Source: Starkeya sp. ORNL1
Lineage (GTDB): Bacteria > Pseudomonadota > Alphaproteobacteria > Rhizobiales > Xanthobacteraceae
Assembly: GCF_012971745.1 (NCBI RefSeq)
Contig: NZ_CP048834.1
Span: 4,340,001 to 4,404,000 of the forward strand
Length of the DNA: 64,000 nucleotides
Direction: 5' to 3'
Of the stretch, positions 9,320-53,285 are shown piece after piece (within the stretch, counting starts at the first letter, position 1; each line of letters starts with the position of its first letter). The notes under the pieces are model-generated. The model was not told the origin of the DNA. It saw only the letters and a list, made by a program, of their open reading frames with translations, and ran no database searches. The position numbers and the translations under genes are program-made.

Positions 9320-9430
9320 TCATCCTGAGGTGCGAGCGAAAGCGAGCCTCGAAGGATGTTGAAGCCGGGCAACGGCCATCGCCACGAACATCCTTCGAGG
9401 CTCGGGCTTTGCCCGAGCGCCTCAGGATGA
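9320..9430. repeat. Intergenic palindromic repeat (TCATCCTGAGG family)
   Basis: A 111-bp element between the binding-protein gene and the first permease gene. Outer arms are TCATCCTGAGG (9320-9330) and CCTCAGGATGA (9420-9430). Inner arms are GCCTCGAAGGATGTT and AACATCCTTCGAGGC. RNA from it would fold into a long, strong hairpin inside the liv operon, which could stabilise the upstream mRNA or reduce downstream expression. Confidence 0.75.
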
Positions 9431-9463
9431 GGTCGCTCTCTATCAGGAGAAGTAGGGACGGAT

Positions 9464-13646: not shown

Positions 13647-13670
13647 GCGAGGAGCTTTGAGTTTGAGTCT

Positions 13671-13685
13671 TTGAGTTTTTCTCAA
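13671..13685. promoter_or_regulatory. Inverted repeat TTGAG-N5-CTCAA upstream of the LysR gene
   Basis: Perfect 15-bp dyad TTGAG/CTCAA with a T5 centre, 25 nt upstream of the LysR start and about 205 nt before the first MBL gene. Additional TTGAG half-copies lie at 13657-13674. LysR regulators typically bind T-N11-A dyads in the divergent promoter they share; this is the only obvious candidate here, and its role is inferred. Confidence 0.4.
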
Positions 13686-13890
13686 TGACCTCGCACTATA
13701 AGTCGTTTGACCCGCTGCGGAAGTCCTTTCTAGATCGCTTTCAATATGAGCCTCGCCGGTCGCCGCGTCAGCGGCGGGATGAGCAGGGCCATGCGGGGAG
13801 GATCGATGAGGGCACCAGCGAGGCGCGAACGCCTGCGGGGAATCGCGCGCACGCGGCAGATGTTCGCTGCGGCAATCAAGGAAATTCCGA

Positions 13891-14823: not shown

Positions 14824-14828
14824 AAGCC

Positions 14829-15680: not shown

Positions 15681-15739
15681 AAGGCCCCGCCGGACAACGA
15701 ACAGACAAACGACAAACAAGACGACAGAGGGAGGAAAAC

Positions 15740-38030: not shown

Positions 38031-38077
38031 CGGGCACTGCCTATCCAGACAAAGAACGAGTACCAGGGAGGACTATC

Positions 38078-39037
38078 ATGAAGAAACGGTCGTTACTTGC
38101 TGCCGGTGCGCTGGCGCTGGCCTCGATGCTGCTCACCCCGCCTGCCGCCCGGGCGCAGGCGTTCCCGGACAAGCCGATCCGCCTCATCGTGCCGTTCGGG
38201 GTCGGCGGGACCAGCGACATCTATGCCCGCATCATCACGCGCATCATCGAAGAGAAGAAGATCCTGCCGCAGCCGGTCGTGGTGCTGAACGTGCCGGGCG
38301 CCGGCAGTGCGGTGGGCAGCCGGCAGGTGAAGGATTCGCCAGCCGACGGCTACACGCTGCTGCTCTCGCACCAGGGCATCATGACCGCGCAGGTGATGGG
38401 GCTCGCCGATTTCGGGCCGGATGCGCTGGAGCCGGTCGCCGAGTTCGGCAAGTTCTGCCTCGTCTACGCTGTCGCCGAGACCTCGCCCTACAAGACCTTC
38501 GGCGATCTGCTGGCCGCCGCGAAGAAGAACCCCGGCTCGATCCGCGAATCCACCAATATCGGCTCGGGCATCCATTTCGCCTCGCTGACGCTGTCGCGCG
38601 CTTCCGGGCTGAACCCGCGCTATATCCGCGCCAGCGCCACCCCGGAGCGCATCACCCACCTGATGGGCGGCCATGCCGAGGTGGCGGTGTTCTCGATCGG
38701 CGAACTCGGTGCGATCCAGTCGAACGGCGTGCGCCTGATCCTGTCCTTCTCACCGGAGCCGGACCGTTTTGCGCCGGGCGTCCCGACCGCGCGTTCGCTC
38801 GGCTATGATTCGACCTTCTGCATCCGCAACTGGGTGTTCGCGCCGAAGGGCACGCCGGCTGACCGCATCGCCACCATCGTCAAGGCGTTGCGCGCGGTGT
38901 TCGACACGCCGGAGATGAAGACGGAGTTCGAGCGCTGGAGCACCCAGCCGACCTTCCTCGAGGGTGCCGAGCTGGCGCAACTGATCGCCGCAGAGAACAA
39001 GATGTTCCAGTCGCTGGCAGATGCCGTGCCGAAGTGA
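38078..39037 (+). CDS. TTT-family periplasmic binding protein (TctC), set D
   Basis: Periplasmic binding protein, 319 residues. The leader ends at 'AARAQA' near residue 27; the mature start is 'FPDKPIRLIVPFGVGGTSDI'. 'VVVLNVPGAGSAVGSRQVKD' replaces the usual N-K-x-G-A block. CAGGGAGGA precedes the ATG at 38078. It is the last gene of the operon and is followed by a palindromic repeat. It diverges most from the other four TctC proteins in this window. Confidence 0.9.
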   Translation: MKKRSLLAAGALALASMLLTPPAARAQAFPDKPIRLIVPFGVGGTSDIYARIITRIIEEKKILPQPVVVLNVPGAGSAVGSRQVKDSPADGYTLLLSHQGIMTAQVMGLADFGPDALEPVAEFGKFCLVYAVAETSPYKTFGDLLAAAKKNPGSIRESTNIGSGIHFASLTLSRASGLNPRYIRASATPERITHLMGGHAEVAVFSIGELGAIQSNGVRLILSFSPEPDRFAPGVPTARSLGYDSTFCIRNWVFAPKGTPADRIATIVKALRAVFDTPEMKTEFERWSTQPTFLEGAELAQLIAAENKMFQSLADAVPK

Positions 39038-39215: not shown

Positions 39216-39995
39216 TCAAGCCGTGCCCATCTCCTGCAGCGCCATGAGCGATTCCGGCAGCACCTGGCCGCCATCGATCACCATGGTCTGGCCGGTGATG
39301 TAGGCCGCCTCCTCGGAGGCGAAGAACAGCGCGGAATTGGCGATGTCGGTGACGTTGCCGAGCCGCTTCATCGGGATCGAGGCCGCCATCGAGGCGATGT
39401 AGTCGGCGCCCATGCCGTCCATCCCCTCGGTATGGATGTTGCCGGGCATCACCGCATTGACGGTGATGTTCCACGGCGCCAGCTCTATCGCCGCGGTGCG
39501 CATGAAGCCGAGCTGGCCGGCCTTCGAGGCGCCATAGTGCGACCAGCCGGGATAGCCGGTGATCGGGCCGGTGATGGAGGAGGTCAGCACGATGCGGCCC
39601 TTCTTCTTCGCCTTCATCTCCGGCAGCACGGCGGAGACCGAGAGGAAGGTGCCCTTGAGATTGGTGCCGATGACATGGTCGAAATCGGCCGCGGTCATCG
39701 AGCCGAGCTTGGCTGCCGGGAAGATGCCGGCATTGGCGCACAGCACGTCGATGCTGCCATAGCGGTCGATGGCGCAGGCGGCCATCGCCGAGCAGTCCCC
39801 GGGCACGCTCACATCGCCGGCGAAGGCCGACGCATGCGCGCCGATCTCGGCGGCGACCTTCTCGCCCTCTTCGAGGTTGCGACTGACGACGAGGACGTTC
39901 AGCCCGGCCTCGCCGAACCGCCGCGCAATGCCGCGCCCGATGCCCTTGCTGGCACCGGTGACGATGACGGTCTTCCCCGCTAGCGACGTGAACAT
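39216..39995 (-). CDS. Short-chain dehydrogenase/reductase
   Basis: NAD(P)-dependent SDR of 259 residues. The cofactor motif is TGASKGIG (in 'VIVTGASKGIGRGIA'), the structural motif is 'LCANAGIFPAA' (NAG), catalytic Ser in 'VLTSSITGPITG' and the YxxxK motif in 'HYGASKAGQLGF'. It resembles FabG-type 3-oxoacyl reductases by fold but has no fatty-acid genes around it. The ATG at 39995 gives a normal SDR N-terminus; the frame continues to 40160 without support. It is divergent from the Pot-type operon, so it may act on the substrate imported there. Substrate unknown. Confidence 0.88.
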   Translation of the reverse strand: MFTSLAGKTVIVTGASKGIGRGIARRFGEAGLNVLVVSRNLEEGEKVAAEIGAHASAFAGDVSVPGDCSAMAACAIDRYGSIDVLCANAGIFPAAKLGSMTAADFDHVIGTNLKGTFLSVSAVLPEMKAKKKGRIVLTSSITGPITGYPGWSHYGASKAGQLGFMRTAAIELAPWNITVNAVMPGNIHTEGMDGMGADYIASMAASIPMKRLGNVTDIANSALFFASEEAAYITGQTMVIDGGQVLPESLMALQEMGTA

Positions 39996-40049
39996 AGTCT
40001 CGCAATCCCTCTGTTTTTGCTGAAACGGCAAAGGCTTAAGCTCTCCTTC

Positions 40050-40072
40050 GCAGCATCGGACAGTGATGCTGC
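40050..40072. promoter_or_regulatory. Inverted repeat GCAGCATC-N7-GATGCTGC in the SDR/Pot gap
   Basis: Perfect 8-bp arms at 40050-40057 and 40065-40072, 23 bp in all, 55 nt before the SDR start and 180 nt before the binding-protein gene. A DeoR-type regulator is encoded within the divergent operon and is the natural candidate to bind here; not demonstrated. Confidence 0.45.
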
Positions 40073-40252
40073 CGAAAGATTGGGCTGCCTGCGTTTTCAG
40101 CAGGGTGCGATGCATGTTTGATGTTGTAAAGCCCAAACAGGGATGTTTAGGTTCGCACAAACTCCAACATCAGAACCACACGTGACCGGCCTGATGCGTG
40201 GCGAATGCGCGGAGATAGCATCCCGCGCCAACAAACGAGGGGATATTTCGTG

Positions 40253-41395
40253 ATGGCAGGGATTTCCAGAAGGTCTGTGCTGCAGGGCATGGGCGCACTC
40301 GCCGCCGCCGGCCCGATGCTCGGCATCAACAAGGCGTTCGCGGCGCGCGAGAAGGAGCTGAACATACTGTGCTGGGAGGGCTACAACTCCGCCCAGGTGC
40401 TCGACCCGTTCCGCCAGCTCAAGGGCGCGACGGTGAAGGCCGAGAGCCTCACCAACGACCCCACCATGATCAACCGCCTGCGCGCCGGCGAGATCAACAC
40501 CTGGGACCTGATCAACGTCAATAATCCCTGGGCACGCAAGGTGATGCTGCCCGAGAAGCTCATCAAGCCGCTGCCGCGCGCCGAGTTCGAGCCGTTCTTC
40601 GACAAGATGCTGCCGATGTTCAAGCCGCCCTACAAGTGGGCGATGAGCGCCGACGGCAAGGAGCTGATCGGCAGCTGCCAGCGCTTCGGGCCCTACAGCT
40701 TCGTCGTCAACACCGACAAGGTGAGCCGCAAGACCGCCGAGGGCGAGGGCTGGAACATCTTCAACGAGCCGTCCATGGCCGGCAAATACGGCATCCTGGA
40801 ATCCGACGACTGGAACGTCTTCAACATCTTCGTGCTCGCCAATATCGACCCGTTCAAGGTCCACACGCCCGACGAGATGGCGAAGTTCGAGGAGACCGCC
40901 AAGCGGATCTTCAAGGGCGCCAAGCTGATCGGCGACATCGCCTCGATGAACCAGGCGCTGATCTCCGGCGAGATCGACCTGCATCTCACCGGCGGCACCT
41001 ATTCGGTCTCGCCGGCGCGCGCCGACGGCCACCCGAACCTGCGCGGCATCACTCCGCTGAAGGGGCCGATGGAAGGCGGCAAGGGCGGCATCTCCTGGAT
41101 CGAGGTGACCTCGACGGTGAACAACCCGAACCTGTCGCCGCTCGCCATCGAATTCCTGAAATATGTGCAGGATCCCAAGGTGGCGCACACCGTGGCGTTC
41201 GCCGAGGGCACGTTCAATCCGGTGGCGCAGATGGGCAACAAGGCGTGCTTCGATCTCTTCACCAAGGAAGAGCTTGACGCCATCCAGTGGGACAGCCTCG
41301 AAGAGGAAATGGCCCGCTCGGTCGAGTACGATATCGTGCCCGATTACGACAAGGCGCTCGACGTGATGAATGCCGCCAAGCGGCTTCGCGGCTGA
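40253..41395 (+). CDS. Polyamine-type ABC importer, periplasmic binding protein (PotD-like)
   Basis: Periplasmic binding protein, 380 residues, of the spermidine/putrescine-binding group. A twin-arginine-like leader ('ISRRSVLQGMGALAAAG') ends at 'KAFA' about residue 31. The mature start 'KELNILCWEGYNSAQVLDPF' is the classic PotD opening (W-E-G-Y). GAGGGG lies about 10 nt upstream of the ATG; a GTG three bases earlier is equally usable. It is the first gene of a nine-gene operon. The family binds polyamines but also many other amines and amino acids, and the downstream kinase/phospholyase pair suggests an amino-alcohol-like ligand. Confidence 0.88.
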   Translation: MAGISRRSVLQGMGALAAAGPMLGINKAFAAREKELNILCWEGYNSAQVLDPFRQLKGATVKAESLTNDPTMINRLRAGEINTWDLINVNNPWARKVMLPEKLIKPLPRAEFEPFFDKMLPMFKPPYKWAMSADGKELIGSCQRFGPYSFVVNTDKVSRKTAEGEGWNIFNEPSMAGKYGILESDDWNVFNIFVLANIDPFKVHTPDEMAKFEETAKRIFKGAKLIGDIASMNQALISGEIDLHLTGGTYSVSPARADGHPNLRGITPLKGPMEGGKGGISWIEVTSTVNNPNLSPLAIEFLKYVQDPKVAHTVAFAEGTFNPVAQMGNKACFDLFTKEELDAIQWDSLEEEMARSVEYDIVPDYDKALDVMNAAKRLRG

Positions 41396-41474
41396 TCGAC
41401 CAGGCGGATGGATTGGGCCGGTGCGCGGGAGCGCGCCGGCGGCGGGCTGTAGCCTGCCCAAAACGGAAGACACG

Positions 41475-42578
41475 ATGCTCCAGACTTCGCCCAGCGCGGT
41501 GATCGATACCCAGCCGAAGCCGATCCTCCAGCTTGTCGGCGTGCGCAAGACCTTCGGCACCTTCACCGCGGTGGAGAGCATCGACCTCGATGTCGTCGAG
41601 GGCGAGTTCCTCACCATTGTCGGCCCGTCCGGCTCCGGCAAGACCACGCTCTTGCGCATGCTCGCGGGCATGGACTATCCGACCGAGGGCAACATCACGC
41701 TGCACGGCAAGCTGATCAATGACGTGCCGCCGAACAAGCGGCCGACCTGCCTGGTGTTCCAGTCGCTGGCGCTGTTCCCGCACAAGAGCGTCGGCGACAA
41801 CATCGCCTTTCCGCTGAAGGTGAAGGGCATCGACACTGCGGCGCGCAAGGTGCGGGCGCTGGAGCTGATGCGCCTCGTCCGCTTGCCTGAGAACTATCAC
41901 GACAAGAACGTGATGAAGTGCTCCGGCGGCGAGCGCCAGCGCGTCGCGCTCGCCCGTGCGCTCGCCTACGATCCCGAAGTGCTGTTCTTCGACGAGCCGC
42001 TCTCGGCCATCGACTACAAGCTGAAGAAGACGCTGGAGAAGGAGCTGAAGGATCTCCATCGCGAGACCGGCAAGACCTTCATCTACATCACCCACAGCCT
42101 CGAAGAAGCGATGGTGATGTCCGATCGCATCGGCGTGATGCGCGCGGGAAAGCTGGTGCAGGTCGGTACCCCCGAGGAGATCTATGGCGCCCCGGTCGAC
42201 CGCTTCGTCTGCGAGTTCCTCGGCGAGGTGAACACCATCAAGGTGCGGCGCGGCCCGGACGACGTATGGTCCGGCATCGATGTCGAAGGCAGCTTTCGGC
42301 TGCGCCCGCCGGATGACGGCGCCGAGCTCGACGAGGCGCTCATCATGGTACGCCCGGAATATATGCGCTTCCTTGGTCCCGGCGACGTCGCCGACAATCG
42401 CATCGAGGGCCTCGTCTACAACGAATATTCGCTCGGCTCGCGCATCCAGTACCAGGTCCGCGTCGGCGAGAAGGTCATGCTGGTCGAGCTTTCGCGTGGC
42501 CGCGCCTTGCGGGCCGGCGCCGACCGCCGCGTCACCATAGGCTGGGACGCCGCCGACGCCTTCACCCTCGGGAGTTGA
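41475..42578 (+). CDS. Polyamine-type ABC importer ATPase (PotA-like)
   Basis: Cytoplasmic ATPase, 367 residues. Walker A is 'GPSGSGKTT', the signature is 'CSGGERQRVALARAL' (C in place of L), Walker B is 'VLFFDEPLSAID' and the switch His is in 'FIYITHSLEEAM'. The C-terminal TOBE regulatory domain runs from about residue 280 to the end. The ATG at 41475 follows CGGAAGA; an open frame begins at 41370 but overlaps the binding-protein gene. Followed 4 nt later by the first permease gene. Confidence 0.9.
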   Translation: MLQTSPSAVIDTQPKPILQLVGVRKTFGTFTAVESIDLDVVEGEFLTIVGPSGSGKTTLLRMLAGMDYPTEGNITLHGKLINDVPPNKRPTCLVFQSLALFPHKSVGDNIAFPLKVKGIDTAARKVRALELMRLVRLPENYHDKNVMKCSGGERQRVALARALAYDPEVLFFDEPLSAIDYKLKKTLEKELKDLHRETGKTFIYITHSLEEAMVMSDRIGVMRAGKLVQVGTPEEIYGAPVDRFVCEFLGEVNTIKVRRGPDDVWSGIDVEGSFRLRPPDDGAELDEALIMVRPEYMRFLGPGDVADNRIEGLVYNEYSLGSRIQYQVRVGEKVMLVELSRGRALRAGADRRVTIGWDAADAFTLGS

Positions 42579-42582
42579 GCGG

Positions 42583-43488
42583 ATGGCCGACATCGCTCTC
42601 GCCCGCCTGCCGGAGACCGCCAACGAGCTGCGCCGCGCCCGCATGCTGTCGCTCGGCGCGCGCTGCGCGCTGCCCGTCGCCATCCTGCTCGGCATAGGCT
42701 TCCTGGCGCCGATGATCGCCATTCTCGGCTATGCCTTCGCCACGCCGCGCAGCTTCGACGTGTTTCGCAGCTTCACGCTGGAGAACTTCGCCACCCTCTT
42801 CGACCCCACCAACACGGTGTGGCTGTCCTTCCTGTGGTCGTGCGGCTTCGCGCTGTTCACCGTGGCGATCCTCGCGGTCATCTCCTATCCGATCGCCTAT
42901 GGGCTCAACATGGTGTTCGGCCGCGCCTCGCCGCTGATCAGCGTGCTGTTCGTCTTCCCGCTGTTCGTCTCGGAGAACGTGCGGCTCTATGGCTGGGTGC
43001 TGTTCTACATCAAGAACGGCGTGCTCGACGGCACGCTGAAGTATTTCGGGCTCGGCGGCGGGCCCGAGGTGCTGTTCACGCCGGGCATGACGCTGTTCGG
43101 CATGGTCTATACCTATCTGCCCTTCATGCTGTTCCCGATGACGCTCGGCCTCGCGCTGGTGCCACGCGACCTGGTCGACGCCGCGCGCGACCTGGGAGCC
43201 GGCCGGCTGTTCATCTGGCGCGAGATCGAACTGCCGCTGGCGATGCCGGGCATCCTCATCGGCATGCTGCTCACCTTCGTGCTCGGCATCGGCGCCACGG
43301 CGGAGGCGAAGATCCTCGGCGGGCAGTCGGTGATCGTCATCTCCCACGATATCGAGATCGCTTTCACCTATTCGCAGAACTGGCCGCTCGGCTCGGCGCT
43401 CTCGGTGGTGGTTACCGTCTTCATCGCGGCGCTGACGCTGTTCGCGCTGTCGAAGCTCGACCTCGACCGCATGCTGGGGAGGCGCTGA
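42583..43488 (+). CDS. Polyamine-type ABC importer permease (PotB-like)
   Basis: Inner-membrane permease, 301 residues, six helices. The EAA loop is 'LVDAARDLGAGRLFIWREIE', followed by 'LPLAMPGILIGMLLTFVLGIG' (in part). Its start follows GGAGTTGAG, and its stop is 1 nt before the potC-like ATG. It pairs with the next gene product. Confidence 0.9.
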   Translation: MADIALARLPETANELRRARMLSLGARCALPVAILLGIGFLAPMIAILGYAFATPRSFDVFRSFTLENFATLFDPTNTVWLSFLWSCGFALFTVAILAVISYPIAYGLNMVFGRASPLISVLFVFPLFVSENVRLYGWVLFYIKNGVLDGTLKYFGLGGGPEVLFTPGMTLFGMVYTYLPFMLFPMTLGLALVPRDLVDAARDLGAGRLFIWREIELPLAMPGILIGMLLTFVLGIGATAEAKILGGQSVIVISHDIEIAFTYSQNWPLGSALSVVVTVFIAALTLFALSKLDLDRMLGRR

Positions 43489-43489
43489 G

Positions 43490-44290
43490 ATGCGACGCGC
43501 GGTGAAGCGGACCAACGCACTGATCTGGGCCTGGACGATCTTCGTCCTGGTCGTGATCTATCTGCCGATCATCTGTGGCGGGCTCGCCAGCTTCAACAAG
43601 AGCCGCTATTTCGGCTTCCCGATCAAGGCGTACTCCACCGACTGGTGGGACAAGATGTTCGCCTCGATCGAGATCGGCATGATCGTGAAGACCTCGATCA
43701 CCGTTGCGCTGCTGGTGACGGTGTTCTCGGTGGTGATCGCCACCTTCGGCGCGCTGGCCTTCGCCCGCTATGACTGGAAGGGGCGGCGGCTCTACCAGAA
43801 GCTCATCATCCTGCCGATCTTCTTCCCACAGCCGGTGCTCGGCCTCGCGCTGCTGCTCGGCTTCAATGCCGTGGGTATCCAGACCACCTGGATGACCGCG
43901 GTGTTCGCCCACATGGTGTGGATCGTGCCGGTGGTGACGCTGGTGATCGCCATCCAGGTCTATGGCTTCGACCCCTCGCTGGAGGAAGCGGCGTTCGACC
44001 TCGGCTGCTCGCGCCTCCAGGTGCTGCGCGAGGTGACGCTGCCGCTGCTGTGGCCGGGCATATGGTCCGGCATGCTGTTCGCGTTCCTGCTGTCCTGGAG
44101 CAACTTCCCGCTGTCGCTCTATACGACGGGCGCCGACAGCACGATCCCGGAATGGCTCTATGCCAAGATGGTCGCCGGCTATACGCCGATGGTGCCGGCG
44201 CTCGGCACTATGGCGACCGTATGCGCTGCCGCCATTCTCCTCGCCGGCGGGCTGGTCGGCGTGCTGGTACGACGGCGGCAAGCGGCATGA
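43490..44290 (+). CDS. Polyamine-type ABC importer permease (PotC-like)
   Basis: Inner-membrane permease, 266 residues, six helices. EAA loop: 'EEAAFDLGCSRLQVLREVTL'. 'LASFNKSRYFGFPIKAYSTD' (in part) after helix 1 is the PotC hallmark (F-N-x-S-R). It overlaps the DeoR gene by 4 nt (ATGA), so the regulator is produced together with the transporter. Confidence 0.9.
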   Translation: MRRAVKRTNALIWAWTIFVLVVIYLPIICGGLASFNKSRYFGFPIKAYSTDWWDKMFASIEIGMIVKTSITVALLVTVFSVVIATFGALAFARYDWKGRRLYQKLIILPIFFPQPVLGLALLLGFNAVGIQTTWMTAVFAHMVWIVPVVTLVIAIQVYGFDPSLEEAAFDLGCSRLQVLREVTLPLLWPGIWSGMLFAFLLSWSNFPLSLYTTGADSTIPEWLYAKMVAGYTPMVPALGTMATVCAAAILLAGGLVGVLVRRRQAA

Positions 44291-45102
44291 ACAAGCTCGA
44301 TCCACCGCCGCGCAACCTCCCGCCCCCGCGGAAATTGCGGCTGGACAAATCCTCGCGGCAGGAGCGCATCCTCGCGGAGATGATGGCGTCCGCCACGCTG
44401 CGGGTCGGCGATCTCGCCGCCGATCTCGACGTCTCCACAGAGACCATCCGGCGCGATCTGTTCGAATTGCAGGAGCGCGGCCTCATCAGCCGCACCTATG
44501 GCGGCGCGGTGCGCCCGTTCGCCGCCGAGCCCTCCGTCACCGAGCGCCACCGGCTGATGGTGGCGGAGCGCGAGGCGATCGCGGCGCTCACCGTGAAGTT
44601 CATCAAGCCGAAGGAAGTCATTGCCATCGGCGCCGGCGCCACCACCACCCATGTCGCCCGCCGCATGGCCGCGGAATGCCGCGACCTCACCGTCATCACC
44701 CATTCCTTCTCGGTGGCGACGGTGGTGGCGGCCAATCCGACCATCGACGTCATCATGTGCCCCGGCCGCTATGATGCGCGCGAGGGCATGATGGTCGGCG
44801 CCGAGACCATCGACTTCCTGCAATCCTACAATGTGAACCGCGCCATCCTCGGCATTTCCGGGCTCACCACCGAGGGCCTAGCGGACGCCGAGGCGGGAGC
44901 CGCCTGGGTCTACAAGGCGATGATGAACCGGGCGTCGGAGACCATCATCGTCTCCGACCACAAGAAGTTCGACGTGCAGGCGCTCGCCATCTGGGCGCGC
45001 ATTCCGGACATACAGCGCCTCGTCGTCGACGAGCCGCCCGAGGGCGCGATCAGCCGCGCTCTGGAGCGTGCTCGGGTCGAGGTGTCGGTGGCGGGGAAAT
45101 AG
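44287..45102 (+). CDS. DeoR-family transcriptional regulator
   Basis: Regulator of 271 residues. The DeoR helix-turn-helix is at about 20-75 ('RQERILAEMMASATLRVGDL' then 'LDVSTETIRRDLFELQERGL', 'SRTYGGAV'). The effector domain carries the sugar-phosphate-isomerase-like 'AIGAGATTTHVARRMA' phosphate-binding segment, so the inducer is probably a phosphorylated metabolite; this fits the kinase encoded two genes later. It overlaps potC by 4 nt and is 2 nt before the hydrolase gene. The ATG at 44287 gives the usual length. Confidence 0.88.
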   Translation: MNKLDPPPRNLPPPRKLRLDKSSRQERILAEMMASATLRVGDLAADLDVSTETIRRDLFELQERGLISRTYGGAVRPFAAEPSVTERHRLMVAEREAIAALTVKFIKPKEVIAIGAGATTTHVARRMAAECRDLTVITHSFSVATVVAANPTIDVIMCPGRYDAREGMMVGAETIDFLQSYNVNRAILGISGLTTEGLADAEAGAAWVYKAMMNRASETIIVSDHKKFDVQALAIWARIPDIQRLVVDEPPEGAISRALERARVEVSVAGK

Positions 45103-45104
45103 TC

Positions 45105-46010
45105 ATGTGGCAGCAACGCCCGGCAGACGAGCGGATCGAGATCGAGGTCGATGGCCATCGCGTCGTCGCCTATTCCTACGGGGTCGGCGAGGAGGTGGTG
45201 TTCCTGCTGAATGGCGGGCCCGGCCTGCCGTGCGACTATCTGCGCGACGCCCACAGCTTCCTGACGGATCATGACTATCGCGTTGTCGCCTTCGACCAGC
45301 TCGGCTGCGGTGCCTCGGACCGACCGGAGGACCCGGCATTCTGGTCGATCACCCGCTATGTCGAGGAGACCGAAACGGTGCGGCGCGCGCTCGGGCTCGG
45401 CAAGGTGCACCTCATCGGCCACAGCTGGGGCGGCTGGCTCGCCATCGAATATGCGCTCACCTACCCGGAAGCGCTGAAGACGCTAATCCTCGAGGACACC
45501 GCTGCCGACCTGCCGCATCTGATGCAGGAGATGCACCGGCTGCGCTCGGCGCTGGGCACCGAGACGGTGGAGATGCTGCTCGCCCATGAGGCGGATGGCA
45601 GCTACCACCATCCGGAATATCAGGCGGCGATCACGCTGATGAACTACCGACATGTGTGCCGGCTCAGCATCTGGCCGAAACCCTTGATGGCTTCGCTGAA
45701 TGACTGGAACGTCGTGCCCTATATGACGATGCAGGGACCGAACGAATTCCTCTATATCGGCAACCTCAAGGACTGGAACCGCACCGCCGATCTGCCGCGC
45801 ATCGCCTGCCCGGTGCTGATCACCGTCGGAAAGCATGATGAGATCACCCCGGCCTGCGCATTGCGCATGAAGCAGGGGCTCGCCCAGGCCGAGCTGGTCG
45901 TGTTCCCGAACTCCAGCCACATGCCGTTCTATGAGGAACCCGCCGCCTATGACTCGGTGTTGCTCGGCTTCCTCGACAAGCACGCAGCCGGCGCGAAGGA
46001 TGCGGCGTGA
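45105..46010 (+). CDS. Proline-iminopeptidase-like alpha/beta hydrolase
   Basis: Soluble alpha/beta hydrolase, 301 residues, peptidase S33 group. The oxyanion segment is NGGPG (36-40, as HGGPG in proline iminopeptidases), the nucleophile is Ser107 in GHSWGG, and the Asp and His are in 'VGKHDEITPA' and 'NSSHMPFYEEP'. It should hydrolyse an N-terminal peptide bond, amide or ester. Embedded in the Pot-type operon, with a TGATG overlap to the next gene. It could release the amine or amino acid used by later enzymes; substrate unknown. Confidence 0.87.
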   Translation: MWQQRPADERIEIEVDGHRVVAYSYGVGEEVVFLLNGGPGLPCDYLRDAHSFLTDHDYRVVAFDQLGCGASDRPEDPAFWSITRYVEETETVRRALGLGKVHLIGHSWGGWLAIEYALTYPEALKTLILEDTAADLPHLMQEMHRLRSALGTETVEMLLAHEADGSYHHPEYQAAITLMNYRHVCRLSIWPKPLMASLNDWNVVPYMTMQGPNEFLYIGNLKDWNRTADLPRIACPVLITVGKHDEITPACALRMKQGLAQAELVVFPNSSHMPFYEEPAAYDSVLLGFLDKHAAGAKDAA

Positions 46011-46708
46011 TGGGCTGGAAGACCGAGAACCGTTCCTTCTATTACGCGCTGGCGCCGGAGCCGGACAATCCGGTGCTCGACCCGGCGACCACCGCGCTGC
46101 TGGTCATCGACGTGCAGAACACCTATCTGGCGCGGCCCGACCGCGCGGGCCTCATGAGCGAGGCCGAGCGCGCCCACTATGACGCTTGGTCGCCGTTCCA
46201 TGAGCGCATGCACGGCACGGTGATCCCCAACATCGCCGAGTTGCTCGCGCTGTTCCGGGGTGCCGACATCGAGCGGCTGTTCGCCCGCATCGCCTGCCGT
46301 ACCAAAGACGGTCGCGACCGCTCGCTGAGCCAGAAGAAGCCGGGCTTCAACAATCTGCTGTTGCCGAAGGATGAGGACCCTTCGCAACTGGTCGAGGCTC
46401 TGGCGCCCGAGGGCGACGAGATCGTTGTCATCAAGACCACGGACAGCGCGCTGACCGGTACCAATCTGCGGCTTGTCCTCGCCAATCTCGGCATCCGCAC
46501 CGTGATCTGCGTCGGCATCTTCACCGACCAGTGCATCTCCTCAACCGTGCGCAGCCTGGCAGACGAGAGCTTCGACGTCGTGGTGCTGGAGGATTGCTGC
46601 GCGGCGGCGACCGATGAGCTGCACAGGCGCGAGCTTGAAATCATCAACATGATCTACTGCAACGTGATGAGACTGTCGGACCTCAAGGCGCTGATGAGGC
46701 TCGGATGA
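46010..46708 (+). CDS. Isochorismatase-like cysteine hydrolase
   Basis: Soluble hydrolase of 232 residues with the isochorismatase fold. Catalytic triad D34 ('LLVIDVQN'), K142 ('VVIKTTDSA') and C175 ('FTDQCISST') are all present, so it should be an active cysteine amidase of the nicotinamidase/ureidohydrolase group. The ATG at 46010 overlaps the stop of the upstream gene. An N-terminal extension of about 25 residues precedes the first strand. It would hydrolyse an amide or carbamoyl group of a pathway intermediate. Confidence 0.87.
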   Translation: MGWKTENRSFYYALAPEPDNPVLDPATTALLVIDVQNTYLARPDRAGLMSEAERAHYDAWSPFHERMHGTVIPNIAELLALFRGADIERLFARIACRTKDGRDRSLSQKKPGFNNLLLPKDEDPSQLVEALAPEGDEIVVIKTTDSALTGTNLRLVLANLGIRTVICVGIFTDQCISSTVRSLADESFDVVVLEDCCAAATDELHRRELEIINMIYCNVMRLSDLKALMRLG

Positions 46709-47727
46709 CCGACACCATGTATGACGCGCACTTCCTCGATCGGCTGGAATCCGGGCTGCGCGCCGCGCTGCCGCGCTGGGGCCTGTCGAACGGGACCGAC
46801 CTGCGCCTGCTCACCATTTCCGAGAACGCCACCTTCCGCGCCCATGATCCCGCCACCGGCCGCGACGTGGTGTTCCGGGTCCACCGGCCCGGCTACCACA
46901 CCCGGGCGGAGATCGCCTCGGAACTGGCCTGGCTCGGTGCGCTCGGGGGCACTGAAGTGGTGCCGACGCTGACGCCGATCCCGCAGGTGGATGGCGAACT
47001 GATCGCCGATATCGACGATGACGGCGTCACCCGCCATGTCGTCGCCTTCGGTCTGGTCCAAGGACGCGAGCCGGCTGAGAATGAGGACATGGCGCGCTGG
47101 TTCCGCGAGCTCGGCGCCATCAATGCGCGGCTCCATGCCCATGCCAGGGGCTGGCAGCGTCCTGATGGTTTCGTGCGCAAGGTCTGGGACTTCGACGCCA
47201 TGCTCGGCGCGGTGCAGCTCTGGGGCGACTGGCGCGCCGGGCTCGGCCTGACGCCGGAGGGCAGGGCGGTGCTGGAGCGCACCGCGCGCGTGCTACGCCA
47301 AAAGGTCGAGGCCTATGGCAAGAGCGAGCGCCGCTTCGGCCTGGTCCATGCCGACATGCGCGTCGCCAATCTGCTGGTCGACGGTGACACGCTCTCGGTG
47401 ATCGACTTCGATGATTGCGGCTTCTCCTGGTATCTCTATGACTTCGCCGCCGCGATCAGCTTCATCGAGCATGAGCCGCACATTCCCGAGCTCCAGGCCG
47501 CCTGGATCGCCGGTTACCGCACCGTGGCGCCGCTTCCCGATGAGGAGTGCGCCATTCTGCCGGTCTTCATCATGCTGCGGCGCATGCTGCTGACCGCCTG
47601 GATTGCCTCGCATTCGGAAACGCCGACGGCTCAGGCGCTGGGCGAAGGCTACACGCAGGGCACCGTCGCCCTGGCGCGCGCCTTCCTCGAGACCCATGCC
47701 GTGGAAGGCGAGAAAGCAGCGTCATGA
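46705..47727 (+). CDS. APH/choline-kinase-fold small-molecule kinase
   Basis: Kinase of 340 residues with the aminoglycoside phosphotransferase fold. The catalytic loop is 'LVHADMRVANLLVD' (H-x-D-x-x-x-x-N) and the metal motif is 'VIDFDDCGFSWYLYDFA', both complete. Homologues phosphorylate hydroxyls of choline, ethanolamine, homoserine, hydroxylysine or antibiotics. It overlaps both neighbours by 4 nt, and the next gene encodes a phospholyase-like enzyme; in vertebrates hydroxylysine kinase and its phospholyase use exactly these two folds. Resistance is therefore less likely than phosphorylation of a hydroxylated amine for breakdown. Confidence 0.85.
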   Translation: MTDTMYDAHFLDRLESGLRAALPRWGLSNGTDLRLLTISENATFRAHDPATGRDVVFRVHRPGYHTRAEIASELAWLGALGGTEVVPTLTPIPQVDGELIADIDDDGVTRHVVAFGLVQGREPAENEDMARWFRELGAINARLHAHARGWQRPDGFVRKVWDFDAMLGAVQLWGDWRAGLGLTPEGRAVLERTARVLRQKVEAYGKSERRFGLVHADMRVANLLVDGDTLSVIDFDDCGFSWYLYDFAAAISFIEHEPHIPELQAAWIAGYRTVAPLPDEECAILPVFIMLRRMLLTAWIASHSETPTAQALGEGYTQGTVALARAFLETHAVEGEKAAS

Positions 47728-49049
47728 AAACCCAGGAACTGCAAATCCTTGCCTTGAACGCCTTCGGCGAACGGCCGACCTCCGGATTAGATCCGGACAT
47801 CGCCGCGCTGGTTGAGCGGCGCAGGAAGAGCTTCGGCGCCGGTTCGGTGCTGTTCTATGACGAGCCGTTGAAGATGGTACGCGCGGAGGGCGCCTATCTC
47901 TACGCCTCGGACGGGCGGGCTTATCTCGACTTCTACAATAACGTGCCGACCGTCGGGCATTGCCATCCCAAGGTGGTCGAGGCGGTTCGCAGGCAGGTCG
48001 GCGAGCTGAACATCCATTCGCGCTACCTGTTCGACGTGTTGCACGATTATGCCGAGAAACTGCTCGCCACTTTCCCGTCCGAGCTCTCCAATCTGGTGTT
48101 GACCTGCACCGGGAGCGAGAGCAATGACCTCGCCTTGCGCCTCGCCAGGAAAGCGTCCGGGGGCAGCGGCTTTGTCGTTACCCGCACCGCCTATCACGGC
48201 AATACCGCCGCGGTGACCGAGGTCTCGCCGTCTTCCTACAAGACCGGCGGTCCGCCGCCGCATGTGCGCATGGTGCCGCCGCCCGATCCCGCGATCTTCG
48301 GCAATGACGTGGCGCAGGGCTTTGCCGACGCGGTGTCCGGCGCCATCGCCGCGATGGAGGCCGACGGCATCCGCTTTGCCGGCTTGCTGGTGGATACCAT
48401 CTTCTCGTCCGATGGCGTGTTCGCCGATCCGCCCGGCCTGCTGAAGCCCGCGATCGAGGCGGTGCATGCCGCCGGCGGCCTGTTCATCGCCGACGAGGTG
48501 CAGCCCGGCTTCGGGCGCACCGGCGAGGGCATGTGGGGTTTCGCCCGCCACGGCGTGATGCCGGATGTCGTCACCATGGGCAAGCCGATGGGCAACGGCT
48601 ATCCAATCGCCGGCGTGGTGACGCGGCCGGAGATCCTCGCCGATTTCTGCGCCGATTTCGGCTATTTCAACACCTTCGCCGCGAGCCCTGTCGCCACCGC
48701 TGCGGCGCTCGCCGTGCTGGAGGCGATCGAGGAGGACGGGCTGATCGCCAATGCGGCGAACGTCGGCCGCCATCTGATGGGGCGCTTGAGGCGGCTGCAG
48801 GGCAGCGCGCCGATCACCGCGGTGCGCGGCGCCGGTCTCTATCTCGGCGTCGAGTTCGGCACCGAGGATGGCCCCAGGCCCGGCATCGCCAAGGGGCTGA
48901 TCAATGGCCTCAGGGCGAGTGGCATATTGATCGGTGCCGCCGGGCAATATGGCAATGTGCTGAAGATACGCCCGCCGCTCTGCGTCACCACCGAGCATGC
49001 GGACATACTGGTCGACACCATGGAAGAACTGCTCGACGGGATGGCTTAG
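47724..49049 (+). CDS. Class-III aminotransferase-fold PLP enzyme, phospholyase subgroup
   Basis: PLP enzyme of 441 residues. The Schiff-base Lys is K287 in 'VTMGKPMGNGYPIAG'; the PLP Asp is D257 in 'IADEVQPGFGRTGEGMWGF'. Two segments, 'NNVPTVGHCHPKVVEAV' with 'ELNIHSRYLFD' after it, and 'MGKPMGNG', match the ethanolamine-phosphate and phosphohydroxylysine phospholyases more than ordinary omega-transaminases. Such enzymes remove phosphate and ammonia from an O-phospho amino alcohol to give an aldehyde. It overlaps the kinase by 4 nt (ATGA), supporting a two-step route. Plain transamination remains possible. Its 3' end overlaps cbiZ by 4 bp. Confidence 0.83.
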   Translation: MKTQELQILALNAFGERPTSGLDPDIAALVERRRKSFGAGSVLFYDEPLKMVRAEGAYLYASDGRAYLDFYNNVPTVGHCHPKVVEAVRRQVGELNIHSRYLFDVLHDYAEKLLATFPSELSNLVLTCTGSESNDLALRLARKASGGSGFVVTRTAYHGNTAAVTEVSPSSYKTGGPPPHVRMVPPPDPAIFGNDVAQGFADAVSGAIAAMEADGIRFAGLLVDTIFSSDGVFADPPGLLKPAIEAVHAAGGLFIADEVQPGFGRTGEGMWGFARHGVMPDVVTMGKPMGNGYPIAGVVTRPEILADFCADFGYFNTFAASPVATAAALAVLEAIEEDGLIANAANVGRHLMGRLRRLQGSAPITAVRGAGLYLGVEFGTEDGPRPGIAKGLINGLRASGILIGAAGQYGNVLKIRPPLCVTTEHADILVDTMEELLDGMA

Positions 49050-49741
49050 CGCGCGTCGATCCATGCGGTGAGCGCGGCCGTCGTCGCCTCCAGCACGCAG
49101 GCGCCGACCGCTTCGCCGACCGCGGTGTGCATGCCGGCGAAGGCGGCGGGCTCGGGTCCGAGCGGCGCCGCCATCACGATGCAGTCGGTCCCGGTGCCGG
49201 TGACGGTGAGCGACTGGCCGACGCGGTGATAATCGGCCTCAACGATCGCGACGGTGCGCGCCTGCGCCGCGAGGGAGGCGGCCTCCAGCAGCGCCGCATC
49301 GGTAAGCGGCTGCGACACGTGGCACAGTATGTTCACGGTGCCCGGCTGATAGCGGCGCGGCTGGGCGATCCTGCTGCCGACCCGCTCGCCATTATTGAGG
49401 CCGAGCGTCACCACGCAATGCGCCTCGACCGCTTCGACCAAGACCGCGCGATGCACGAAGCTGGCGATGTCGCGGGCGGTCATCATGCCTACCGCGTCTG
49501 CAAGCCCGACCGATGCGAGCTTCTCCGCGAACCACTCGGCCGGTTCGCGATCCGCTGGCAGGTCGGCATCGCGCACCTGAAGCCACGCCACGTCCGTCGC
49601 GTCGACGAGACCGGGCCGGTTCAGCGACCAGCTCACCGCCCGCTGCGGCGCGCGGAAGCGCACGGTGAGCCAGGGAGGCGCGCACTGGACGGCGAAGGTG
49701 GCGCCCGTGTCGTGGCTGGGGAGCGGAAACACATGGTTCAT
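49046..49741 (-). CDS. cbiZ: Adenosylcobinamide amidohydrolase (CbiZ)
   Basis: A 231-residue soluble enzyme that cleaves the aminopropanol-linked amide of salvaged cobinamides to return adenosylcobyric acid. Family segments: 'AVSWSLNRPGLVDATDVAWL' (in part), 'GMMTARDIASFVH', 'CVVTLGLNNGERVG', 'GTVNILCHVSQPLTDAALLE' (in part) and the terminal 'TGTGTDCIVMAAP'. The ATG at 49741 gives the expected length; the open frame upstream overlaps the haem oxygenase gene. No cobalamin riboswitch or other cob genes are in view. Convergent with the phospholyase gene and divergent from haem oxygenase. Confidence 0.82.
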   Translation of the reverse strand: MNHVFPLPSHDTGATFAVQCAPPWLTVRFRAPQRAVSWSLNRPGLVDATDVAWLQVRDADLPADREPAEWFAEKLASVGLADAVGMMTARDIASFVHRAVLVEAVEAHCVVTLGLNNGERVGSRIAQPRRYQPGTVNILCHVSQPLTDAALLEAASLAAQARTVAIVEADYHRVGQSLTVTGTGTDCIVMAAPLGPEPAAFAGMHTAVGEAVGACVLEATTAALTAWIDAR

Positions 49742-49837
49742 CGGCAGATAGAAAGATTCCAGAGTTATCGGCGATGGCAGGTGGGGAATTGCATCGCTCA
49801 AACGTCTTGGTATTGAGGGGTATTGGAGTGGAACAAC

Positions 49838-50431
49838 ATGACGATAGCAGCAACGAATATCAGTCCGGAAGGGCGGGCCAAGCGGCTGAGGGCGGCTTCC
49901 ACCGCGCTGCATGAGCAGGTCGACCAGGCGGTGATGGCGGCGGAGCCCTTTGCCAGCCGCGAGCATTATGCGCGCTTCCTGCACTTCCAGCACCGCCTGC
50001 ATCGGCGAGTGGCGCCGCTCCATGCGGATGCACAGCTCCAGGCCGTGCTGCCGGACCTCACGGAGCGCGCTCGCCTCATCGCGGTGGAGTGCGACTTCGC
50101 CGATCTCGGCCTGTCGGTGCCGGAGCTGGACGAGCGCGCGCCTGCGCTTCCGGTGCCGGAGGCGCTGGGCTGGCTCTATGTGGTCGAAGGCTCGAACATG
50201 GGCGCCGCCATCCTCGCCAGGGAAGCCGGCAAGCTTGGCCTGTCGGACGGTTTCGGCGCGCGGCACCTCGCCGGTCACGCCGAAGGGCGCGGGCTGCACT
50301 GGCGCCGTTTCACCGCGGCGCTCGACGCCGTGGAGCTGACGCCGGACGAGGATCTGCGCGCCCAGGCCGGCGCGGTAGCGGCATTCAGCTATGTGCTCGA
50401 ACTCGTCGGGCAGGAATTGAATGCCGGGTGA
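49838..50431 (+). CDS. Biliverdin-producing haem oxygenase
   Basis: A 197-residue soluble haem oxygenase that opens haem to biliverdin, iron and CO. The proximal His is H25 in 'STALHEQVDQAV', and the distal glycine helix is 'YVVEGSNMGAAILAREAG'. The length suits the bacterial BphO/HemO class. ATG 49838 follows GGAG at about 9 nt; the TTG at 49823 is less likely. It lies 213 nt upstream of the stop of the convergent haem-receptor gene, so it may release iron from haem taken up there. No bacteriophytochrome is adjacent, arguing for iron acquisition over chromophore supply. Confidence 0.87.
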   Translation: MTIAATNISPEGRAKRLRAASTALHEQVDQAVMAAEPFASREHYARFLHFQHRLHRRVAPLHADAQLQAVLPDLTERARLIAVECDFADLGLSVPELDERAPALPVPEALGWLYVVEGSNMGAAILAREAGKLGLSDGFGARHLAGHAEGRGLHWRRFTAALDAVELTPDEDLRAQAGAVAAFSYVLELVGQELNAG

Positions 50432-50643: not shown

Positions 50644-53196
50644 TCAGAACCGCCAGCTCACGCTGGTGCGCATGGTTCGTCCGGGCGAGGGCAGCAGGCC
50701 GGTCGAGAGCGGGTCGAGATAATAGCGGTCGAAGGCGTTCTCCAGGCTGAAATCCCAGGTGACGTCGTCGTTGAATTTGTAGCTGCCGAAGAAGTCGACG
50801 ATGGTGTTGGACGTCCAGTAGGTGGGCGCATTGACGGCACCGCCGAGCAGGCGATAGCCGCCATAGCGCTCGCCGAAGAAATAGGCCCGGCCGCCAAGCG
50901 TGAGCGCCTCGTCGAACAGGCGGATGCCGGCGGTGATGGTTCCCGAATATTCCGGGGGAATGCTCACCAGGCCGTAGTCGCCTGAGGCCACATCGAAGCC
51001 GCATACGCCGCCTTCGCCGCAGAACTGGATATCGGTGTATCTGGTGAAACTGGCTTCGACGAAGAATTTGCCGGCATCGTAGGAGCCGGACAATTCATAG
51101 CCTACGAACTTCGCCCGCGGAATATTCGTCCATGTATAATAGGACGGGTTGTCCGGAATGCGCGTGCGGATGATGTAATTGTCGTAGTTGTTGTTGAAAT
51201 AGGATGCCTTCAGCCGCAGCTTGTCGCCGGCGATGAAGACATCATCACGCAGCAGGTTGGTGCCGAACTCGGCATTCTTGGACGTCTCCGGCTCCAGGTC
51301 CGGGTTCGGCAGCACGGTCGCGAAGGTCAGCGACGCCGATTCACGCAGGCTCGGCGGCCGCCAGCCCTCGGTGTAGAGCCCGAACAGCTGGAAGCCTTTC
51401 GCCAGAGTAAGCTCGACGCCGGCCGACGGATTGAGCCGGCCGCCATCCTTTGCGGGATAGTCGCTGAGTTGGTCGGTCGGCGTGAGCTCGTAATAATCGT
51501 ACCGCAGGCCGCCAAGCAGGGCGAGCCAGTCCGTCATCTCCAGCTTCGACTGGTTGAAGGCGCTGAGCAGAAGCCGATTACCGCTCGGGTTCTTGCTCTG
51601 GAGCCCGTAAGAATAGACGGGGTTCTCGTCCGCCATCTCATAGACCGTTTCTGCGCCGTTGTTCACGCGCAGCTGTCCAAGCGGAGTGTCGAACAGCGAA
51701 ATGTTGGCGGCGTCGCCACCATAGGTGCGGATATGGGTCTTGCCGTCGGCTTCCGGCACGGCGTTGAAATCCTTCAGCACCTGGCTGAAGGTCTCGACAT
51801 CGGAGACCCACGCGTGGGCGGTGAAGTTGATGTAGTCGCTGTCCGGATCGTAGGTATATTTCGAGGTGAAGGTATTGGTCGTCGTCTCGGCAAGACCGAA
51901 TTGTTCATAAGGCGTTATGATGGTCGGATGACCGACGAAGGACAGCAGCGTCTCATTATAGTCACCATATTTATTGTTGTAATAGATATAGCCGAGTTCC
52001 AGCGCCTGCCCGTCGCCCCAGCCGACCTTGCCCTTGGTGAGGAACGAGGCGACATCCTGCGAGGTGTTGAAGGCCTCCCATCCCGGCTTGATCGGCGACA
52101 ACGCGCGTTCGACCGGTGTCCCGCCGGTTCGATCGTCGAGGAAGCTGTCGGCGCCATTGGTGCCGACGAAGTAATTGCCGGCCTTGCGCCGTGAGGCTGC
52201 GGCGACGAACTCGTAATTGTCCTTCTTCAAGCCGGCGGCGACGCTTCCCGACCATGCGTCGCCATTGAAGAAATCGGGGGCGCTGGTCTCGTAGTCGTAG
52301 GAATGGGCTCCGGGCGGCGTGACGGTGTTGCTGCCGAGACTGCCCTTCAGCCGCGCGCCATACTCGGCGCCGGGCTTCAATATGTCGCCGGCCTCGATGG
52401 TGCGCATATTGACGACGCCGCCCATGGCGCCGACGCCGCCGGCGCCGCCATAGGGACCCTTGTTGATGTCGACGCCGCCAATGAAGTCCGGGTCGATATA
52501 GACCTCGTTGCGGCTGCCGCGATAGCCGCGATAGGAGCTGTTGGTCTGGCGGGTGCCGTCGACCATGACATTGATGCGGTTCTGGCCCTGCAGGCCGCGT
52601 ATGTTGAGGTCCACCGAGGCGCCGATGCGGTTGCCGGTCGCGATTACGCCGGGCGTGTCGCGGAAGATGTCGCCGAGCGAGGTCGGCGGCAGCCGCTCCA
52701 CCTGCTCGCCGGAAATATAGCTCACCGGCCCCGGCGTCGCGTAAGGCGCGTCGGCCGGCGGGACATTGGCGGTGACGTCGATGGGATCGAGTTCTTCCGA
52801 TCCGTCCGGCGCGACGCCGACGGGCCGCGTGGCCTCGCCGGGCCGCGACAGCACGACCGTCGAGGCATTGGTAAAGCGGGCGGAAAGTCCGGTGCCGGCG
52901 AGCAACCTCGCCAGCGCCTGCGCCGCGGTGAGCGTGCCGGAGACCGGCGCCGAGGAGCCGCCCAGCGCTTCCCCGCTCGAGCGCACCACCTGCACGCCGG
53001 TCAAGGCGGTGAAGTCGGCCAGCGCGGCGAGCAGCGGCTTGGCCGGGATGTTGAATTGCCAGGATCTGGCCTGCGGCTGCGCCGCCGCCTGCGCGAGCGC
53101 TGCTCCCGGATGCAGCAGCGACATCGCCGCCATCGTCAGCACCAGCGCGGAGGCGCCGCACAGCAGGCGCCGACGCGCCGAGACACGTCTCTTCAT
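50644..53196 (-). CDS. TonB-dependent haem/hemophore-type receptor with STN signalling domain
   Basis: Outer-membrane receptor, 850 residues. Signal peptide about 1-35 ('ALVLTMAAM' to 'GAALAQA'), STN domain about 42-120 ('WQFNIPAKPLLAALADFTAL' in part), plug from about 150 ('DPIDVTANVPPADAPYATPG'), then the beta-barrel ending in 'TSVSWRF' with terminal Phe. The plug segment 'TRQTNSSYRGYRGSRNEVY' and the barrel motif 'NPDLEPETS' are of the haemoglobin/hemophore receptor type. The STN domain relays ligand binding to FecR, encoded upstream. I start at ATG 53196; the frame to 53283 would precede the signal peptide. An ICE-like box lies about 90 nt upstream. Confidence 0.88.
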   Translation of the reverse strand: MKRRVSARRRLLCGASALVLTMAAMSLLHPGAALAQAAAQPQARSWQFNIPAKPLLAALADFTALTGVQVVRSSGEALGGSSAPVSGTLTAAQALARLLAGTGLSARFTNASTVVLSRPGEATRPVGVAPDGSEELDPIDVTANVPPADAPYATPGPVSYISGEQVERLPPTSLGDIFRDTPGVIATGNRIGASVDLNIRGLQGQNRINVMVDGTRQTNSSYRGYRGSRNEVYIDPDFIGGVDINKGPYGGAGGVGAMGGVVNMRTIEAGDILKPGAEYGARLKGSLGSNTVTPPGAHSYDYETSAPDFFNGDAWSGSVAAGLKKDNYEFVAAASRRKAGNYFVGTNGADSFLDDRTGGTPVERALSPIKPGWEAFNTSQDVASFLTKGKVGWGDGQALELGYIYYNNKYGDYNETLLSFVGHPTIITPYEQFGLAETTTNTFTSKYTYDPDSDYINFTAHAWVSDVETFSQVLKDFNAVPEADGKTHIRTYGGDAANISLFDTPLGQLRVNNGAETVYEMADENPVYSYGLQSKNPSGNRLLLSAFNQSKLEMTDWLALLGGLRYDYYELTPTDQLSDYPAKDGGRLNPSAGVELTLAKGFQLFGLYTEGWRPPSLRESASLTFATVLPNPDLEPETSKNAEFGTNLLRDDVFIAGDKLRLKASYFNNNYDNYIIRTRIPDNPSYYTWTNIPRAKFVGYELSGSYDAGKFFVEASFTRYTDIQFCGEGGVCGFDVASGDYGLVSIPPEYSGTITAGIRLFDEALTLGGRAYFFGERYGGYRLLGGAVNAPTYWTSNTIVDFFGSYKFNDDVTWDFSLENAFDRYYLDPLSTGLLPSPGRTMRTSVSWRF

Positions 53197-53285
53197 TCCC
53201 CGTACCCCATAGCATTCGTGGCCGCTTTTGCTGCCTTCAGCTATGGAACGGTTGGCAGTGATCGAGTCCTCAAGATTTTTCAAAG

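Follow-up and report, generated by a model that had tools for sequence, protein, structure and literature searches.

A stretch of 64,000 nucleotides from Starkeya sp. ORNL1 (NZ_CP048834.1), called the window here, in which all coordinates are positions, carries at 40253-49049 nine open reading frames (ORFs), all on the + strand, that probably form a DeoR-controlled catabolic operon for 1-amino-2-propanol, for aminoacetone or for both. 1-Amino-2-propanol is the linker inside vitamin B12, and the operon would be a variant, without a shell, of the RMM/Aut systems of Rhodococcus and Mycobacterium. Every one of the nine products is backed by Pfam, and the genes are closely packed, being separated in gene order by gaps of 79, 4 and 1 nt, an overlap of 4, a gap of 2 and overlaps of 1, 4 and 4 nt. 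The original prediction, made from the sequence alone, had described a nine-gene operon over this interval, which is borne out by the co-directional ORFs, their Pfam matches and their conservation among relatives; the unit also reaches beyond both ends, to a divergent gene for a short-chain dehydrogenase/reductase (SDR) and a convergent gene for CbiZ.

This reading draws on gene content, protein families, phylogeny, linkage and an operator-like motif, all of them observed; the substrate, the order of the steps and the direction of the SDR reaction are those that we infer. An ATP-binding cassette (ABC) importer of the Pot type would take up a positively charged amine or one of its small amides, and a proline-iminopeptidase-family hydrolase (PIP), an isochorismatase-family amidohydrolase (ISO) and CbiZ would free the amine from amides, the corrinoid linker included. 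The SDR would interconvert aminoacetone and 1-amino-2-propanol, the kinase would turn the latter into 1-amino-2-propanol O-phosphate, and the pyridoxal phosphate (PLP) enzyme, a putative phospholyase, would convert this ester to propanal, ammonia and phosphate, after which the propanal would be oxidised by dehydrogenases encoded outside the operon. The amine had originally been left unnamed, with the remark that no described bacterial pathway was known for such a gene set. Neither view is upheld: the SDR and the kinase are similar to the pair in the published RMM/Aut route for aminoacetone and 1-amino-2-propanol, and the adjoining CbiZ gene points to 1-amino-2-propanol. A literature search, with subscription papers mostly outside its coverage, found no described Pot-linked aminopropanol operon. 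The features of the unit are as follows.

39216-39995, - strand: SDR, homologue of a presumed (S)-1-amino-2-propanol dehydrogenase, annotated FabG in relatives (PDB matches 6ci8/6ci9)
39996-40252, no strand: divergent regulatory region, with GTTGTAAA at 40123-40130 and TGTTG/CAACA half-sites at 40122, 40165 and 40229
40253-41395, + strand: substrate-binding protein (SBP) of PotD/PotF fold, with a twin-arginine-like signal, SRRSVL (PF13416)
41475-42578, + strand: ABC ATPase, PotA-like (PF00005 and TOBE_2)
42583-43488, + strand: ABC permease, PotB-like (PF00528)
43490-44290, + strand: ABC permease, PotC-like (PF00528)
44287-45102, + strand: DeoR/GlpR-family regulator (HTH_DeoR and DeoRC over cut-offs)
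45105-46010, + strand: PIP, an alpha/beta hydrolase (TIGR01250, 267 over 168 bits)
46010-46708, + strand: ISO, a cysteine amidohydrolase (PF00857)
46705-47727, + strand: APH-fold kinase, homologue of a presumed (S)-1-amino-2-propanol kinase (PF01636; 6ef6, 272 bits)
47724-49049, + strand: class-III PLP enzyme, ETNPPL-type phospholyase clade (5g4i, 342 bits; trees)
49046-49741, - strand: CbiZ, adenosylcobinamide amidohydrolase family (PF01955), convergent and overlapping the operon by 4 nt

Phospholyase, kinase and dehydrogenase

A working mode in which the substrate would be phosphorylated and the phosphate then eliminated is well supported by the families of the two enzymes concerned. The PLP enzyme finds its best PDB sequence matches in 5g4i, the phospholyase of Arthrobacter (342 bits), and 6tor, the human ETNPPL (307 bits), with 40-44% identity to both, and the next entry scores 167. 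In a maximum-likelihood tree of 48 rows, from which one Geminicoccus row had been dropped, it falls together with ETNPPL and 5g4i in a group of 41 rows (support 98/99), outside which lie seven of the eight other class-III enzymes of its own genome, the eighth (L098) being inside; a second tree, which leaves out eleven relatives' rows, places it again with the phospholyases (100/100). Residues N72, R100, N316 and K414 are present in all 42 clade rows and in at most one of seven transaminase-type rows from the same genome, and the PLP-binding lysine lies within TMGKPMG. NCBIfam models all remain sub-threshold, the best being PRK06148 (422 of 1128 bits) and PRK06149 (367 of 973), and these matches fall in the C-terminal region of longer proteins. 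A phospholyase-type enzyme was what the original prediction had proposed, and its placement in a class-III phylogeny that includes ETNPPL supports this. Grouping with ordinary omega-transaminases was rejected, the trees setting the enzyme apart from seven class-III enzymes of its own genome.

The same genome has a second operon (L182, C1:3276500-3292500, at 6279-15754) that contains ABC importer genes, an APH-fold kinase weakly similar to 6ef6, a phospholyase-clade enzyme 51% identical to that of the window, and carboxyltransferase CT_C_D/CT_A_B genes; its substrate may be another amine.

The kinase, whose catalytic motifs HADMRVAN and IDFDD are intact, matches 6ef6 with 272 bits and 44% identity, the next PDB entry being amicoumacin kinase with 59 bits and 24% identity, so that an antibiotic kinase is not its nearest match. 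The SDR matches 6ci8/6ci9 with 315/313 bits (57% identity to 6ci8), followed by 3rih (288), 3pk0 (275) and the FabG 2uvd (172), and it is divergent from the SBP gene in the window and in 54 related loci. We take 6ef6 to be the (S)-1-amino-2-propanol kinase of Mycobacterium smegmatis and 6ci8/6ci9 the corresponding dehydrogenase; reference lists give the titles of papers on the two enzymes, and the PDB entries 6ef6, 6ci8 and 6ci9 bear generic names. The M. smegmatis kinase is reportedly widespread and often found beside a candidate phospholyase. By homology, then, the kinase and the SDR would both be enzymes of the aminopropanol type.

Both families are also met in other arrangements. A database protein of 581 amino acids (P0071) joins PF00857 and PF01636, that is, an ISO and a kinase, families that are neighbours in the window, although the fusion may stem from a missed stop codon. 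On a Variovorax paradoxus plasmid (L179, 2411-12636) an SDR of the window family lies directly 3' of a gene annotated as N,N-dimethylformamidase, and a class-III enzyme and ABC transporter genes are present as well.

A conserved module with and without a shell

Conservation was followed in 82 kinase loci, namely the best 80 of 163 relatives from a contig scan with a three-kinase alignment and two Agrobacterium plasmids; in 68 of them the kinase is flanked by 8 kb or more in either direction, and all were selected as close kinase relatives. The core, made up of SDR, SBP, ATPase, two permeases, DeoR regulator, kinase and PLP enzyme, is complete in 53 of the 68, a linkage beyond what chance would give, with some part lacking in the other 15, and the 6ci8-type SDR is found in 59. 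Four of the 82 loci contain an APC permease, and in these four the Pot SBP was not seen. At E≤1e-50 the kinase is present in 104 of 397 genomes of the order.

Twenty further loci from that 397-genome search were examined, all of them distant matches with at most 54% identity. According to tblastn, six (L146, L151, L155, L157, L158 and L161) encode a bacterial microcompartment shell protein together with an RMM-type acylating aldehyde dehydrogenase. The Pot importer and SDR of the window recur in three of these (L155, L157 and L158); L146 and L161 show the SDR, with importer parts at the edge, and L151 lacks both. Pfam, applied to L157 as the sole such shell check, gave the shell domains PF00936 and PF03319 and the aldehyde dehydrogenase. 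No shell protein was found in view in the remaining 14, among which L150 and L152 combine the kinase with an SDR, an APC permease and ISO. Another way of reaching such loci is through the importer: SBP matches at E≤1e-80 occur in 13 of 337 genomes of the class and, with the own genome excluded, define 13 places in 12 genomes. Six of the 13 have SDR and kinase beside the importer, L165 being of the shell-free type and L166, L167, L168, L170 and L172 having the other kind of class-III enzyme and the acylating dehydrogenase, with a shell gene in view in L172 alone; no kinase was seen at the other seven, two of which are on contigs shorter than 13 kb.

Compared with the window, L155, L157, L158 and L172 show identities of 55-74% for the SBP, 54-62% for the SDR and 41-45% for the kinase (tblastn). 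Five of the six shell loci, and L150 with them, have class-III enzymes that form a six-row clade of their own (100/99), outside the phospholyases; in L155 none is in view. Judged by sequence, the same importer and SDR-kinase pair is combined with two separate PLP lineages, because the class-III enzymes of the shell loci make up a clade outside the phospholyases. The own genome contains no PF00936 shell match, the control being positive in E. coli and Synechococcus, and tblastn with a threshold of 40% identity matched no CoA-acylating aldehyde dehydrogenase in the 82 loci; in the own genome the search for such an enzyme was confined to the window, where the 15 proteins scanned include none.

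Other aldehyde dehydrogenases do occur. In Methylopila jiangsuensis (L041) a succinic semialdehyde dehydrogenase (SSADH)-like gene lies 3' of the phospholyase at 12773-14278 (TIGR01780, 712 over 646 bits), and in L152 a betaine aldehyde dehydrogenase (BADH)-like gene follows it (516 under 669 bits); both fit an aldehyde product, whichever aldehyde it may be, the L041 gene being the one sign that it might differ from propanal. A 35-kb Moraxella osloensis plasmid (L178, 7818-18759) carries kinase, SDR, APC permease, two class-III enzymes and two aldehyde dehydrogenases, and this amino-alcohol set, which adjoins ethanolamine ammonia-lyase genes, is counted in favour of the proposed route.

The regulatory regions share sequence features too. 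The motif GTTGTAAA is present in 51 of 55 regions between SDR and SBP, against a mean of 0.33 after shuffling and a top count of 10 for any 8-mer in 100 shuffles, a test that ignores the shared descent of these regions. For kinase genes that have no core gene directly before them, at least three TGTTG/CAACA half-sites within 60 bp are present in 24 of 47 upstream regions; for those immediately behind a core gene the count is none of 31, and for control windows it is 32 of 3200, the rule having been set after inspection of the promoters. A stricter pattern, tried first, gave at least two sites in 7 of 46 separate-unit promoters and in 21 of 1600 control windows. Three half-sites within 60 bp are also found in 17 of the 55 SDR|SBP regions, and the region of the window, with two, is not among them. 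Seven shell-type loci showed no half-site cluster of this sort. These patterns suggest that the importer/SDR and kinase promoters belong to one regulon; the DeoR protein would bind at the candidate operator motif in response to an effector that is likewise presumed.

Importer and hydrolases

The predicted structure of the SBP (pLDDT 84) ranks PotD/PotF-type structures first in both fold comparisons, with 13-20% sequence identity to those listed and no PDB sequence match at 1e-3, and such a predicted fold is consistent with a cationic ligand. The importer stays under the NCBIfam Pot equivalog cut-offs (PotA 305<482, PotB 126<348, PotC 133<326, PotD 21<582). It thereby resembles the spermidine/putrescine Pot importers in fold and gene set and differs from them in its model scores and in the low identity of its SBP.

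Intact catalytic residues had been predicted for both hydrolases, and they are indeed there. PIP has the motifs GHSWGG, HDEITP and SSHM and keeps, in alignment with 1mt3, the glutamate of GPNEF and an Asp-Glu pair; ISO, for which no NCBIfam model passes its cut-off, has the aspartate, lysine and cysteine motifs, with lysine and cysteine kept in alignment with 6azo. That the two together are a required part of the system is not supported. A tblastn census of five hydrolase types (CbiZ not counted, thresholds set by the author) over the 53 core-complete loci gave none of the five in 14, PIP in 11, ISO with P1 peptidase in 10, ISO in 9, D-aminopeptidase in 4 (these genes lying more than 6 kb from the kinase), ISO with PIP in 2, and P1, P1 with PIP, and D-aminopeptidase with P1 in one each; PIP and ISO as an essential pair were rejected on these counts. 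A Bradyrhizobium locus has an amidase-signature protein directly 5' of the kinase, replacing other hydrolases. Because the hydrolase state varies among core-complete loci, the hydrolases would be accessories that can stand in for one another, probably amidases whose step precedes that of the kinase.

CbiZ and the identity of the amine

CbiZ, the sole copy in its genome, covers the PF01955 profile in full (1-191 of 191; 160 bits over a cut-off of 27) and stays far under the cut-off of the NCBIfam CbiS model (74<250); its start, a methionine at 49741, is the author's choice. It is found in 18 of the 82 kinase loci, three times as a partial gene, and in none of 33 other loci (L145-L177). Its position varies with the family: in Xanthobacteraceae it lies 3' of the phospholyase and in Methylopilaceae 5' of DeoR, both on the opposite strand, and in Rhizobiaceae and plasmid At it precedes DeoR, often following ISO. 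Among the 397 genomes of the order CbiZ occurs in 43 and together with the kinase in 19 (hypergeometric 0.005), within 2.4 kb of it in six of these 19, five of the six being of one family. The linked CbiZ proteins do not group as a single clade, with three changes on the tree, no such clade in any of 200 bootstrap trees and a p-AU of 0.0066; two rows identical to others were left out, and the starred branches alone force one change. CbiZ is for this reason taken to have been recruited repeatedly to the operon, as far as its sequences tell, which would therefore favour 1-amino-2-propanol as the amino alcohol. Membership of CbiZ in a corrinoid-uptake cluster found no support: across the window and seven related loci, every Rfam family stayed below its gathering threshold, and this holds for the cobalamin riboswitch too. 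In Ancylobacter relatives the neighbours past CbiZ (PLD/VTT, endo/exonuclease-phosphatase, iron permease, USP, P-type ATPase) do not fit corrinoid uptake either.

In the window, CbiZ is followed by a haem-oxygenase-family gene (49823-50431), L007 too having a haem-oxygenase gene near CbiZ, and by a TonB-dependent receptor with an STN domain (50644-53283); next to the SDR are genes for TctA and TctC of a tripartite tricarboxylate transporter (36522-39037).

A wider role for CbiZ is conceivable, if doubtful at present: together with unrelated amidases (PIP, ISO, P1 peptidase, amidase-signature) it would free aminopropanol from corrinoids or other amides for the kinase and phospholyase to burn, and cobamide remodelling would be tied to carbon and nitrogen catabolism. 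Were this true, the class-III enzyme of the microcompartment loci would also eliminate, without transamination.

Other amines have to be weighed. In Chimaeribacter and R. jostii, genes annotated as ethanolamine permeases are found close to related kinase/PLP pairs, EutBC stands beside the Moraxella set, and human ETNPPL, named for phosphoethanolamine, belongs to the clade; the same chemistry could hence act on ethanolamine or on a wide variety of amino alcohols, with 1-amino-2-propanol as one substrate among several, but this is rather unlikely given the CbiZ linkage and the conservation (59/68) of an SDR for which ethanolamine would leave no clear role. A 1-amino-2-ol with a longer chain, for example 2-hydroxyputrescine or 4-amino-3-hydroxybutyrate, which would yield 4-aminobutanal or succinic semialdehyde, is somewhat less probable still. 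The PotD/PotF-type SBP, the 4-aminobutyrate (GABA)-bound PotD 8jv1 in its fold list and the SSADH-like gene of L041 would agree with it, yet an SSADH of that type occurs in one of the 82 loci at a 60% threshold, and the links with CbiZ and with microcompartments indicate aminopropanol. That the operon merely unites an omega-transaminase and an aminoglycoside-resistance-like kinase for unrelated polyamine use, as the default annotations of relatives ('aspartate aminotransferase family', 'phosphotransferase') might suggest, is highly improbable in view of the PLP phylogeny, the signature residues and the nearer kinship of the kinase to 6ef6 than to amicoumacin kinase.

The aminopropanol/aminoacetone route itself has several observations weighing against it. 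CbiZ was not found in 64 of the 82 kinase loci, and in 13 of the 19 genomes with both, CbiZ and the kinase are not within 10 kb of each other; furthermore, CbiZ frees the (R) isomer, while the 6ci8 and 6ef6 enzymes are named for the (S) isomer. The SDR is likewise kin to 3rih, 3pk0 and FabG, the NCBIfam FabG model NF004202 being over its cut-off (427 vs 333 bits). In trees, the SDR and kinase of the operon branch separately from the RMM proteins of mycobacteria and R. jostii instead of being nested among them, so their specificity may have shifted. Finally, a scan of 15 window proteins between 36.5 and 53.3 kb brought up no aldehyde dehydrogenase, and the SSADH-like and BADH-like enzymes of L041 and L152 do not single out propanal.

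Comparison with known systems

The systems closest to the operon are those of Rhodococcus and Mycobacterium. According to PMC4207490, RMM1 loci encode a phosphotransferase and an SDR alongside hydrolases, a permease and a regulator of the GntR type, and amino-2-propanol is cited there as inducer and SDR substrate. PMC6620236 gives the gene set the name Aut and assigns to its PLP enzyme a transamination that produces lactaldehyde, and PMC8156839 mentions a proposal that RMM converts aminoacetone to propionyl-CoA. Common to these systems, as so described, and to the window are a homologous SDR and APH-type kinase, a class-III PLP enzyme and, for RMM1, hydrolases. The window system differs in having neither a shell nor an acylating aldehyde dehydrogenase in the operon, in having a Pot importer and DeoR instead of the GabP-like permease and GntR of the RMM descriptions, and in a PLP enzyme of another lineage than that of the shell loci examined in this order. 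Membership in an RMM microcompartment is excluded, because shell genes and an in-locus aldehyde dehydrogenase were not found. The occurrence of the importer-SDR-kinase module with and without a microcompartment offers a natural comparison for the purpose of the shell.

With ETNPPL (6tor) and the Arthrobacter phospholyase (5g4i) the window enzyme shares its clade, the PLP lysine and the clade-specific residues, differing by its moderate sequence identity. An ETNPPL-type phospholyase in this place would favour elimination to propanal over the transaminase-to-lactaldehyde model set out in PMC6620236. As regards CbiZ, PMC7733943 describes its hydrolysis of the amide adjoining the aminopropanol linker of corrinoids. 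The CbiZ of cobamide remodelling in Rhodobacter sphaeroides, as presented there, has the same full-length domain, but that of the window adjoins a catabolic operon and has no cobalamin riboswitch match.

What is new here is the link of CbiZ to an amino-alcohol operon and a shell-free form of a known pathway. The link offers a fate for the aminopropanol freed in cobamide remodelling, and a conserved gene set, present in many Alphaproteobacteria and on plasmid At of Agrobacterium fabrum C58, with plasmid relatives annotated 'FabG', 'aspartate aminotransferase family' and 'phosphotransferase', gains one candidate substrate.

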